From: Spirochaeta lutea
Lineage (GTDB): Bacteria; Spirochaetota; Spirochaetia; DSM-27196; Salinispiraceae
NCBI RefSeq assembly: GCF_000758165.1
Contig: NZ_JNUP01000071.1
Coordinates: forward strand, 157,766 to 221,765
Length of the DNA stretch: 64,000 nucleotides
Reading direction: 5' to 3'
Each line of letters starts with the position of its first letter. Position 1 is the first letter of the stretch. The notes under the pieces are model-generated. The model was not told the origin of the DNA. It did not search any database and worked only from the letters and a program-made list of their open reading frames with translations. A program made the translations under genes and the position numbers. Below are positions 42,021 to 46,889 of this stretch, piece after piece.

Positions 42021-43787
42021 TTAGGACGCTGTAATTGCTGCAAGATCCTCCTCCACGGTGCCGGTCCCCTGGATTCCGAAGGTATCCACCAGAACCTTGG
42101 CTACCCCGGGACTCAGGAAGGCAGGCAGGGTCGGACCCAGCCGGACATTCTTGAACCCCAGATGCAGGAGGGCAAGCAGGACGGCCACGGCCTTCTGCTC
42201 GTACCAGGCGATATCGAAGTCGATGGGCAGATCGTTGATGTCCGCCATGCCGAAGGCTTCCTTCAGGGTCAGGGCGGTGACCGCCAGGGAGTAGCTGTCA
42301 TTGCATTGCCCGGCATCCAGAACCCGGGGAATACCCCCGATATCCCCGAGATCCAGCTTGTTGTACCGGTACTTGGCACAGCCCGCAGTCAGAATAACCG
42401 TGTCCCGGGGCAGGCCCTGAGCGACCTGGGTAAAGTGGTCACGGCTCTTATGGCGGCCGTCGCATCCGGCCATCACCACGAAGCGTTTGAGGGCCCCGGA
42501 TTTTACCGCGTCGATGACCTTGTCGGCGAGCTGGCTGATCTGGTGATGGGCGAAACCACCGGTAATACTGCCCTGTTCGAGCTCGATCGGGGGCTGGCAG
42601 GTCTTGGCCAGACTTACCAGCGCGGAGAAGTCCTTCCTACCCTGGGAATCCTCGGAGATGTGGGGAACCCCGGGAAAACCGGCCATCCCCGTGGTGAAGA
42701 TCCGGGTTTTATAGCTCTCCTTGGGAGGCACAATACAGTTGGTGGTCATCAGGATTACCCCGTTGAAGCTCTCGAACTCCTTGTCCTGCTGCCACCAGGC
42801 ATTGCCATAGTTACCCACAAAGTGATCGTATTTCTTGAAGGCCGGATAGTAGTTTGCCGGAAGCATCTCCGAGTGGGTGTACACATCCACCCCGGTACCG
42901 GCGGTCTGTTCCAGGAGCTCCTCCATATCCTTCAGGTCGTGGCCAGAAATCAGGATGGCGGGATTGGACCGGGTTCCGATATTTACCTGGGTAATCTCGG
43001 GGTTTCCGTAGGTCTCGGTGTTGGCCTTGTCCAAGAGGGCCATGGTGGTAACCGCGGTCTTGCCGGTTTCCAGAACCAGGGCCGTCAGGCTCTCGGGGTT
43101 CTCATCCTGGGAGGTCCGGGCCAGGGCTGCGGCGGCAAAGCGGTAGATCTCCGGATCCTCGTAGCCCAGGACGGCAGCGTGCTCGGCGTAGGCAGCAATT
43201 CCCTTGAGACCGTAGATGGTCAGCTCTCTGAGGCTGCGGACATCCTCCTGCTCCTGGGCCAAAATTCCCACCAGAGCAGCCTTGCCCTCCAGATCCTCCA
43301 CCAATGCTGGAACAGCCTGGGCCTCCTCGGGTAGATTCTCAAGCTGTTTCTTCTGGTCCACCCCGCTCCGTCCGGCTTGGTAGGCCAGGGCAGCGGCCAA
43401 TTGATCCTGCAGTTCCTCCAGGCTTCGGGACTCGGCCAGGAGGGGTTTCCAGGTAAGGATATCCGGGTTTTCAGGGTGATTCTGATGCCCCAGGCCACCT
43501 GCCAAAAGCTCGCCCCGGAGCACCAGGCCCTCTAAAACCAGGGAGGCGATGCGCAGCCGGTCGAAGTTCGCATTGGTGATGGTGGCAAAGAGCGACCGGA
43601 CGAGATACCGGCCGGCCCTGATCACCTGGTCGTCCCCTGCCCCCTGGGCAGCCAATCCGACCCCTTTCGCGGTGTAGATCAGCAGATCCTGGATCCCCGC
43701 GGTCACATCCTCCTTGCCGCAGACCCCACGGACGGTACAACCCGTGTTCTTTGCGGCTTCCTGGCATTGAAAACAAAACATACTCAT
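42021..43787 (-). CDS. hcp: Hydroxylamine reductase / hybrid-cluster protein, class I
   Basis: A 588-residue cytosolic Fe-S protein that reduces NO or hydroxylamine. The N-terminal cubane ligands are CFQCQEAAKNTGCTVRGVCG, i.e. Cys5, 8, 17 and 23, spaced CX2CX8CX5C as in Desulfovibrio Hcp (class I). Downstream, ligands of the hybrid 4Fe-2O-2S cluster can be seen in ILISGHDLKDMEELLEQT, NCIVPPKESY, AGCDGRHKSR and GCAKYRYNKLDLGDIGG. The ATG follows directly after the stop of the ABC-type gene (TAAATG) with AAGGAG overlapping that end. It is the last gene of the operon started at 46833 and ends at a strong terminator. Confidence 0.96.
   Translation of the reverse strand: MSMFCFQCQEAAKNTGCTVRGVCGKEDVTAGIQDLLIYTAKGVGLAAQGAGDDQVIRAGRYLVRSLFATITNANFDRLRIASLVLEGLVLRGELLAGGLGHQNHPENPDILTWKPLLAESRSLEELQDQLAAALAYQAGRSGVDQKKQLENLPEEAQAVPALVEDLEGKAALVGILAQEQEDVRSLRELTIYGLKGIAAYAEHAAVLGYEDPEIYRFAAAALARTSQDENPESLTALVLETGKTAVTTMALLDKANTETYGNPEITQVNIGTRSNPAILISGHDLKDMEELLEQTAGTGVDVYTHSEMLPANYYPAFKKYDHFVGNYGNAWWQQDKEFESFNGVILMTTNCIVPPKESYKTRIFTTGMAGFPGVPHISEDSQGRKDFSALVSLAKTCQPPIELEQGSITGGFAHHQISQLADKVIDAVKSGALKRFVVMAGCDGRHKSRDHFTQVAQGLPRDTVILTAGCAKYRYNKLDLGDIGGIPRVLDAGQCNDSYSLAVTALTLKEAFGMADINDLPIDFDIAWYEQKAVAVLLALLHLGFKNVRLGPTLPAFLSPGVAKVLVDTFGIQGTGTVEEDLAAITAS
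43473..43491 (+). repeat. 18/19-nt recurrent motif, occurrence 3 (inside hcp)
   Basis: AGGGTGATTCTGATGCCCC, inside the hcp coding sequence. Confidence 0.35.
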
Positions 43788-44831
43788 TTAGTAACTCCTT
43801 GTATGTGGTATGGCTGGTTCTAGGTATGGTGCGAATTCTCTGAATAATGACCGGTCGACCCGGTCCCCCCGGCGCAGGGCGGCCCGTAGGTTCTGGAACT
43901 GGGCGTCTATCTCCTCCAGACGCTCCAGCAGAACCTGTTCTTCCCGGTCCGTTTCCAAGACCTGGGCAATTCCTCCCTGCCGGATGATAATCCGCCGGGG
44001 AGATAGCAGGGCCAGAATCGGATCATGGGTGGCCATGAGGACAATCTTATCCCTGCCGGTTAACAGCTCCAGGGCCCGGCGCCGGTCGATGCCGGCGTTC
44101 TCGATCTCGTCGATGAGCACGATGGGGCTGCGGCTGACCAGGGCAGTGTCGGCGATCATCAGGGCCCGGGATTGTCCGCCGCTCAGGCTGGTCAGGGGGG
44201 TATCCCATCCGAATCCCTCCCCGGCCAGCAGATTCGCCTGGGCGATAACATCCCGGGCGGCTCCGTCGGGGTCAGAGTGATTCCGGCTGCGGGCATGGAG
44301 CTGAATAAACTCCCCTACCCCCAGATCCATCACAAAGTTCATGGTCTGGGACAGCTGGGCCACGAGTTTTTTCGCGGGATTAAACCGGCCGGAGAGCTCG
44401 GGCTGCTCGCCCTGTACGAGGATTCTCCGCCCCGTGGGGGTATCTCCCTGGGCGAGCCATTCGATATCCGCCAAGAGGCGGCTCTTCCCCGACCCAGTGG
44501 GCCCCAGAATGCTCCACACCTGGCCCGGCAGCAGATCCAGGCGCTCAAATCCCTCGGGACTGCCGTCCTTGCCCCGCCCGGGGAGGATGGTAATCCCCAG
44601 CCCCCCGGAACCCCGGTCCTCCGCGCCGGCCGGTCCGGAACCCGGCCGTTCCCCGGGCTGCTCAAGCCCTAAAAAGGCCAGTACCGCGGGATCGATGCCC
44701 GGCTTGGTCTGGGCATGGTTTGGGCTCTGGTGTTGAGCTGGGGCCTGAGTATGGGTCTGGGGTTCGTTCTGGTTCTGGTTCTGTGTCTGGTTCTGTGTCT
44801 GGTTTCGGTCGCTATTCCAGGGTGATTTCAC
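43788..44831 (-). CDS. ABC-type ATPase without membrane partner, hcp operon
   Basis: A 347-residue cytosolic ATPase. All nucleotide motifs are intact: Walker A ILGPTGSGKSRLL, signature LTSLSGGQSRALMIAD, Walker B SPIVLIDEIENAG and H-loop MATHDP. The first about 30 residues are a Gln/Asn/Thr repeat (NQTQNQTQNQ...), then a linker. No permease is encoded nearby in the operon, so it may work as a SufC-like soluble ATPase. GTG 44831 has GGAGG and overlaps the stop of the GTPase gene; the longer open frame to 44975 overlaps that gene entirely and is not chosen. Confidence 0.82.
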   Translation of the reverse strand: MKSPWNSDRNQTQNQTQNQNQNEPQTHTQAPAQHQSPNHAQTKPGIDPAVLAFLGLEQPGERPGSGPAGAEDRGSGGLGITILPGRGKDGSPEGFERLDLLPGQVWSILGPTGSGKSRLLADIEWLAQGDTPTGRRILVQGEQPELSGRFNPAKKLVAQLSQTMNFVMDLGVGEFIQLHARSRNHSDPDGAARDVIAQANLLAGEGFGWDTPLTSLSGGQSRALMIADTALVSRSPIVLIDEIENAGIDRRRALELLTGRDKIVLMATHDPILALLSPRRIIIRQGGIAQVLETDREEQVLLERLEEIDAQFQNLRAALRRGDRVDRSLFREFAPYLEPAIPHTRSY

Positions 44832-46833: not shown

Positions 46834-46889
46834 GGGGCCCAGTGTAGCCCCCCAGGGGAAGCCCCGCCTTGACCTAGGTCAAGGCGGGG
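46834..46889 (-). promoter_or_regulatory. Crp/Fnr-class (HcpR-like) promoter of the hcp operon
   Basis: A perfect 28-bp palindrome at 46862-46889 has the core CCTTGACCTAGGTCAAGG, matching the TTGAC-n4-GTCAA type used by HcpR in several anaerobes. On the minus strand TACACT at 46846-46841 would be the -10 box, giving a start near 46834, next to ATG 46833. The palindrome centre (46875.5) is then at -41.5, the class II activator position. The alternative, a terminator, is less likely: in the operon direction no T-run follows. Confidence 0.65.

Follow-up and report, generated by a model that had tools for sequence, protein, structure and literature searches.

A conserved gene set for a binding-protein-like protein, a GTPase and an ABC ATPase beside hcp in Spirochaeta lutea, with predicted HcpR-type control and a possible role in metal-cluster assembly or repair

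The hybrid cluster protein Hcp is an iron-sulfur-oxygen enzyme that is thought to remove nitric oxide (NO). In Spirochaeta lutea its gene is the last of four touching or overlapping minus-strand genes (42021-46833) in a 64,000-nucleotide stretch of contig NZ_JNUP01000071.1 (positions 157,766 to 221,765), hereafter the window; the other three encode a substrate-binding-protein-like (SBP) protein, a GTPase and a permease-less ATP-binding cassette (ABC) ATPase. The SBP gene (45637..46833) encodes 398 amino acids with an N-terminal DUF1858 domain (E 3.9e-11) and an SBP_bac_6 domain (E 3.6e-58) of predicted FbpA-type fold; it begins within the DUF1858 domain, and no signal peptide was seen by eye. 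The HypB/UreG-like GTPase gene (44828..45640; 270 amino acids; Pfam cobW, E 2.9e-8) meets it in an ATGA overlap. The ABC ATPase gene (43788..44831; 347 amino acids; ABC_tran, E 2e-12) has its best start at GTG 44831, in a GTGA overlap with the GTPase stop, a start that the mechanical list of open reading frames (ORFs) puts at 44975, and the ATG of hcp (42021..43787; 588 amino acids) stands immediately after the ABC stop. The Hcp product matches Prismane (E 4e-168) and TIGR01703 (717.9 bits, cut-off 360.8), its N-terminal cysteines C5-x2-C8-x8-C17-x5-C23 agree with the class I rule C-x2-C-x7/8-C-x5-C, and it is the sole Prismane match in the 3.53-Mb assembly (96% complete). A preliminary description of this DNA had recognized the same four joined genes, including the signal-less binding protein with a DUF1858-like N-terminus, a SIMIBI GTPase with two cysteine motifs and a class I hcp, and all of these identifications were borne out.

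The GTPase scores 33.9 bits against the CobW/HypB/UreG superfamily PF02492 (gathering cut-off 20.7). Its cysteine motifs, LCNRCSPH (C96/C99) and CSYC (C243/C246), fall on two of three conserved sites, C64-P-D-H67, C96-x2-C99 and C243-x2-C246. The first of these is invariant in both GTPase alignments (A1, A5) and aligns onto the GCPH of UreG, whose CPH motif binds metal; this Cys/His alignment counts in favour of the metallocentre idea of the preliminary description. When solved structures were searched with a GTPase profile, RecA fusions that aligned at the P-loop only had the lowest E-values, and the best meaningful match was UreG 4hi0 (E 2.8e-8), with CPH aligned to CPDH. The likeness to HypA/HypB lies in a SIMIBI-type GTPase with a Cys/His site and, in many relatives, a gene for a small zinc-ribbon partner with a weak HypA match. 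The GTPase differs from HypB, however, in its score (42.0 bits; TIGR00073 cut-off 121.2) and, in the window, in an extra CxRC in the switch region and a C-terminal CxxC; moreover, the ABC ATPase and the SBP have no Hyp counterpart, and no hydrogenase was noticed among the neighbours. From UreG it differs likewise in its score (22.7 bits; TIGR00101 cut-off 204.2), and no urease genes were noticed. With scores under the cut-offs, the GTPase was rejected as a known HypB or UreG, and the zinc-ribbon-like protein as HypA. An insert of about 38 amino acids ahead of the C-terminal CxxC (44972-45085, minus strand) was not found in the 23 relatives aligned.

SufC is a soluble ABC ATPase in Fe-S cluster work (PMC9164220; here and below, sources cited by accession are represented by part of their text), and the ABC ATPase of the set resembles it in being soluble. 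It differs in that no SufB or SufD is encoded in the window's operon (neighbours of relatives being read by eye only), and in that its ABC family is a separate one, strongly conserved and marked by an N-terminal domain not shared with SufC. This N-terminus is Q/N-rich in the window, and 23 of 25 relatives carry another domain there (by eye), which gave an hhalign probability of 53% against DUF1858 over 25 columns (four controls, 0.1-0.7%) and in Pfam a DUF1858 match at E 0.14 in one member and none listed in the other; the domain is possibly DUF1858-like, with weak support. Unlike FbpA and FutA, the window SBP has no export signal, no permease and an N-terminal DUF1858 domain, and in the FbpA-type fold prediction binders of sugar phosphate and pyridoxal phosphate score within about 1.2 Z.

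At least 568 relatives of the GTPase occur with one genome taken per species, and the best 80 loci of these were kept; they come from Bacillota, Spirochaetes, Bacteroidetes, Fusobacteria, Cloacimonadota, Deferribacteraceae, Desulfobulbus, Acidobacteria, Aminicenantes and others. The complete SBP-GTPase-ABC block was found in 77 of the 80 loci by six-frame profile scans, with median gaps of 0 nucleotides (nt) between SBP and GTPase and -4 nt between GTPase and ABC (77 loci, mechanical starts), and this completeness together with the tight gaps therefore indicates gene linkage beyond chance. SBP relatives are present in 79/80 loci, the exception being L089, at a contig edge; in one profile scan L023 and L069 gave no ABC match. 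Among ten spirochaete-type genomes with the GTPase, no SBP was matched in the fetched stretch of L009 and L010. The set is real and widespread, and no description of it was found in the literature searched, mostly open-access papers. Its SBP_bac_6 and ABC_tran domains might be taken for orphan parts of an ABC importer with a permease encoded elsewhere, which we consider the least probable of all the explanations weighed here: in 75 loci there is no extra gene within the block, and hence no permease inside it, while same-strand genes with at least four hydrophobic stretches within two genes of it occur in only 16 of these 75 and are of varied kinds. No permease is a conserved neighbour of the block among the relatives, so that the earlier statement that the ATPase lacks a membrane partner holds well beyond the window. 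A hydrophobic stretch was found in none of 77 ABC members and, anywhere in the protein, in 11 of 78 SBP relative ORFs (crude scan, starts unrefined). The signal-less window SBP and a fusion of GTPase and ABC ATPase in locus L102 also speak against importer parts; of the two marks of an importer, a permease partner in the block and an exported binding protein, the set shows neither.

Upstream of the SBP gene of the window lies a perfect 28-bp palindrome, CCCCGCCTTGACCTAGGTCAAGGCGGGG (46862..46889), a predicted HcpR1-type operator that contains the HcpR1-type core TTGACCTAGGTCAA (46869-46882). This core agrees with the pattern used for HcpR regulon sites and is the sole TTGACN4GTCAA match in the genome; a reversed control pattern also occurs once, and it is therefore the position of TTGACCTAGGTCAA, not its count, that matters. 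A -10-like sequence, TACACT (46841..46846, minus strand), absent from the output of a consensus promoter scan, follows, and a transcript starting at 46834 would set the palindrome centre at -41.5 and have a nearly leaderless mRNA. In the relatives a second motif, GTAAC-N4-GTTAC, surfaced unsought in a palindrome count, in 23 of 77 upstream stretches (the window's among the 77) against at most 6 in shuffles. Over all 80 loci (1.31 Mb) it has 34 copies in 24 loci, where base counting predicts about 1.3: 24 stand before the SBP gene (in three cases slightly within an ORF whose mechanical start makes it too long), 8 before hcp and 2 between a Crp gene and its neighbour. The literature gives GTAAC-N4-GTTAC as the HcpR2 motif and wyTTGACnnnnGTCAArw as one of HcpR1 type (PMC1274295). 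Sites of the form TTGA[CT]N4[AG]TCAA lie just ahead of the SBP gene in the relatives G041, G036, G026, G028 and G044, and GTAACATACGTTAC does so in G048; in G036 and G026 TTGA-type sites precede hcp too. The set thus resembles the HcpR regulon (hcp-frdX and others) in having published HcpR motifs ahead of it, and differs in that no such GTPase, ABC and SBP set is named in the examined part of PMC1274295. In the C. difficile hcpR mutant a direct site was reported only ahead of frdX-hcp, and one ABC ATP-binding gene, of unchecked identity, was raised (PMC12915319). Two small GTP-binding proteins in the D. desulfuricans NO transcriptome were set aside, since the available text of PMC5701242 does not show them to be members of the set's GTPase family.

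A candidate HcpR is encoded 8 kb from the operon by a Crp/Fnr-type gene (54769..55362, plus strand) with the recognition helix IPETFSR; its ORF shares 4 nt with the end of a MATE-like gene (53351-54772; identified by eye). Crp-type genes adjoin the trio in G036 and G026, with recognition helices RPETLSR, and among five Crp-type genes of the window's genome their products best match that of 54769-55362 (34% identity). Ser or Pro at HcpR position 180 goes with the TTGAC motif (PMC1274295), and by our own inference this position may be mapped onto the RPETLSR and IPETFSR helices.

With regard to linkage, hcp lies inside 21 of the 80 loci, in 16 of them downstream at no more than 4 kb and in the same orientation; only 59 loci reach at least 4 kb downstream, 44 are full length, and many hcp-less stretches are short. 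At the level of whole genomes, hcp exceeded the cut-off in 44 of the 48 trio genomes searched (which leave out 30 of the 80 loci, plus L042 and L048), and the four without it are all labelled as metagenome-assembled genomes. Background frequencies were taken from three samples, each built around one genome: that of L076 (Lacrimispora), that of L065 (Labilibaculum) and the window's own. The group names are inferred, and all three centre genomes were known beforehand to hold hcp, two from the trio-genome search and the third from the window. In the Lachnospiraceae-type sample (150 genomes) hcp was over the cut-off in 65, and in 8/8 of those with the canonical set; in the Bacteroidales-type sample (198 genomes) it was found in 89, including 4/4 with the canonical and 2/2 with an intermediate set; and in the spirochaete-type sample (61 genomes) there was a Prismane match in 35, and in 8 of the 10 with the set. 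Pooled, hcp is present in 20/22 genomes with the set versus 169/387 without it (stratified exact p 2.8e-5), or 17/19 with the three centre genomes excluded (p 1.9e-4), both p values ignoring relatedness; singly, the spirochaete and Bacteroidales samples are weak (p 0.11 and 0.04). The canonical count excludes the divergent G226, which has hcp, and the intermediate and divergent Bacteroidales-type sets; a weak GTPase match (30%) in G034, which has HCP, was dropped (11/61 to 10/61), and the partial match G355, which is not among the hcp genomes, was set aside. In a tree of 81 HCPs (43 from set-less genomes picked by hand, fragments left out), at least seven changes are required to account for the HCPs of trio loci (hcp at any place in the fetched stretch), and those of the remaining trio genomes are dispersed (15 changes; mean of shuffles 15.6); the linkage therefore arose or persisted in several lineages of HCP. 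The co-occurrence check that the preliminary description had proposed thus came out in favour of an association.

A fourth component accompanies the set in many relatives. It is an 80-amino-acid zinc-ribbon-like protein with the pattern MH[DE]GC...CxxC...CxxC...PCHAFD (alignment A4), whose gene follows the ABC gene at a distance of up to 1 kb in 47 of the 73 loci with room for it (six-frame count) and is present in 31 of 49 trio genomes; the window's own genome does not have it. Of the 198 Bacteroidales-type genomes just four encode it, and these are the four with the canonical GTPase, an overlap expected once in 62 million if random (computed by hand). In the Fusobacterium genome G093 (of L031) the trio is located elsewhere and the zinc-ribbon-like gene stands directly behind hcp (L131), with GTAACAACTGTTAC ahead of hcp. 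The HypA zinc ribbon is its best Pfam match, below threshold: two members score 21.7 and 24.6 bits against PF01155 (gathering cut-off 28.9), and its predicted fold (predicted local distance difference test score 89.9) has no clear PDB match.

Related sets extend the family beyond hcp. G068 (of L064), with a canonical trio, also holds the 529-amino-acid GTPase-ABC fusion (L102:8005-13510), accompanied by a short SBP and adjoining a FecBCD-type importer (parts of it named partly by eye). In two Bacteroidales-type loci (L116:4326-10558 and L117:7166-13330; L116 domain-scanned) SBP-GTPase-ABC lies behind genes for a Peripla_BP_2 (FecB-like) protein, a methyltransferase and, named by eye, a receptor-like product of the outer membrane. 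In a divergent Bacteroidales-type branch, of which 8 out of 11 genomes were fetched, ABC-GTPase precedes a cysteine desulfurase-like gene in seven (L109-L115; two ORFs in L115); an Fe-S-type gene comes after or near it in seven (not L112, whose contig ends), and a Crp-type gene is close by in six. L113, the only divergent locus of that series scanned, gave a NifS/IscS-like match of 453.8 bits (cut-off 530.75) and PF04060, and L107, a second copy in G069, likewise has a PF04060 gene; L109-L115 appear to be an unnamed Fe-S-type assembly operon, ABC-GTPase-cysteine desulfurase-Fe-S, with Crp or Rrf2 genes nearby. A further divergent trio (L103:2637-5868), with a GTPase 41% identical to that of L064 and an SBP without DUF1858, adjoins a divergent Crp-type gene. 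What stays constant across the family is therefore the GTPase-ABC pair, and its companions belong to metal uptake and to Fe-S assembly; the sister sets that combine a cysteine desulfurase with an Fe-S protein were counted as support for metallocentre assembly. The two metal-chaperone-type NTPases and this desulfurase point to assembly, and a sensory or regulatory complex signalling the state of metal or NO, as the common Crp and Rrf2 neighbours could suggest, is for that reason very improbable. Delivery of some other metal or cofactor (nickel or an unknown complex) to an unrecognized enzyme, with the hcp link reflecting a shared anaerobic habitat, would fit a GTPase nearest to HypB and UreG, the importers, methyltransferase and receptor-like gene beside the sister sets, and an Hcp that is not known to contain nickel; the HcpR sites, the co-occurrence with hcp and the lack of any recognizable nickel enzyme when the 45 most frequent neighbour clusters of the 80 loci were read by eye make it improbable.

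The set recurs in many anaerobes, mostly with hcp and often under a shared predicted NO-responsive switch, and it therefore likely builds or repairs the metal cluster of Hcp. Judged from sequence, the conserved trio is predicted to be under HcpR-type, likely NO-responsive control and to assemble or repair metal clusters, with that of Hcp as its most likely target, a reading to which we assign a probability of about 0.48. More tentatively, it may be a membrane-free Hcp maturase with two NTPases (GTPase and ABC ATPase), a cytosolic iron-holding protein of FbpA fold and a zinc-ribbon docking protein, which would build or rebuild the hybrid cluster under nitrosative stress and form one branch of a wider unnamed family, the other branches having a cysteine desulfurase or metal importers. 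In this scheme cytosolic iron, or a complex of it, would sit on the SBP-like subunit; CPDH, CxRC and CxxC of the GTPase would take up metal, with GTP hydrolysis gating its release, as in HypB and UreG with nickel; the ABC ATPase would provide ATP-driven conformational work like SufC; and the zinc-ribbon-like protein, where encoded, would dock the client. Co-induction with hcp would allow Hcp to be re-metallated while NO destroys clusters.

Several observations weigh against Hcp as the client. In 59 of the 80 loci hcp was not among the genes seen near the set, and 6 of 58 trio genomes (the 48 searched plus the spirochaete sample) lack it; the divergent Bacteroidales-type sister sets do not track hcp (6/11, p 0.36). 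Conversely, hcp occurs without the set in 57/142, 85/194 and 27/51 set-less Lachnospiraceae-, Bacteroidales- and spirochaete-type genomes, and the set is missing from most sampled hcp genomes; the co-occurrence could run through HcpR and not Hcp. The exact HcpR2 site is missing from 56/80 loci, neither motif was found in the fetched stretch of G050, G010 and G016 (3 of 10 spirochaete-type genomes with the set), two of which also lack an SBP match, and the window palindrome scores too as a terminator-like hairpin on the plus strand, despite large flanking genes that are both on the minus strand. None of the evidence points to a particular metal. A profile search of solved structures, meant to trace the FbpA iron ligands in the SBP, matched only 2fi0, for the DUF1858 part. 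To our knowledge, E. coli lacks the set. A class III HCP made there with an isc plasmid yielded a crystal structure (PMC10502027), and the hybrid cluster can therefore probably form without the set. Because many hcp genomes lack it, the set is not generally required for Hcp, and what remains of the dedicated Hcp cofactor system of the preliminary description is conditional assembly or repair with Hcp as likely client, not a dedicated and required machinery. The conserved linkage to hcp proposed there gained shared HcpR motifs, co-occurrence and a fourth component, yet physical adjacency is the minority case; of the outcomes it had named as contrary, a set mostly seen away from hcp was observed, and a set mostly in the company of permease genes was not.

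The main rival to an Hcp client is general repair of NO-damaged centres, that is, iron salvage or rebuilding of many damaged Fe-S or iron enzymes, with Hcp merely a fellow member of the HcpR regulon. The 59 loci away from hcp favour it, as do other neighbour clusters, which from the look of their sequences we take to be flavodiiron proteins (8 loci), Rrf2 regulators (16), NrfH (5), NrfA (4) and DUF438/hemerythrin-type proteins (4). DUF1858 genes in an NnrR regulon and, elsewhere, beside nitrate reductase (PMC6710368, PMC6282519) point the same way. We nevertheless regard it as rather unlikely, given that hcp is present in 44/48 trio genomes and above background in the pooled samples, and that the zinc-ribbon-like gene directly follows hcp in L131. 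For the hybrid cluster itself, no paper saying how it is made was found in the literature searched, mostly open-access; a survey of 1476 HCP genes calls HCP neighbours hard to interpret, and the words 'GTPase' and 'substrate-binding' are absent from the main text as available (PMC13056359). An hcp-associated set under predicted shared control would offer a direct genetic handle on hybrid-cluster formation, and it suggests a family of machines in which a GTPase and an ABC ATPase are coupled and a binding-protein fold works inside the cell.

Upstream of the trio, and separated from it by the 28-bp palindrome, is a sugar-type ABC operon (46948-50216, minus strand) with a binding protein, which has a lipoprotein-like signal (by eye), and two permeases, and with no ATPase gene in the block. 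The trio was rejected as a part of this transporter, which has its own permeases and a binding protein of another family. Just downstream of hcp, a 640-amino-acid protein (39892-41814, minus strand) matches MutS in domain V only.

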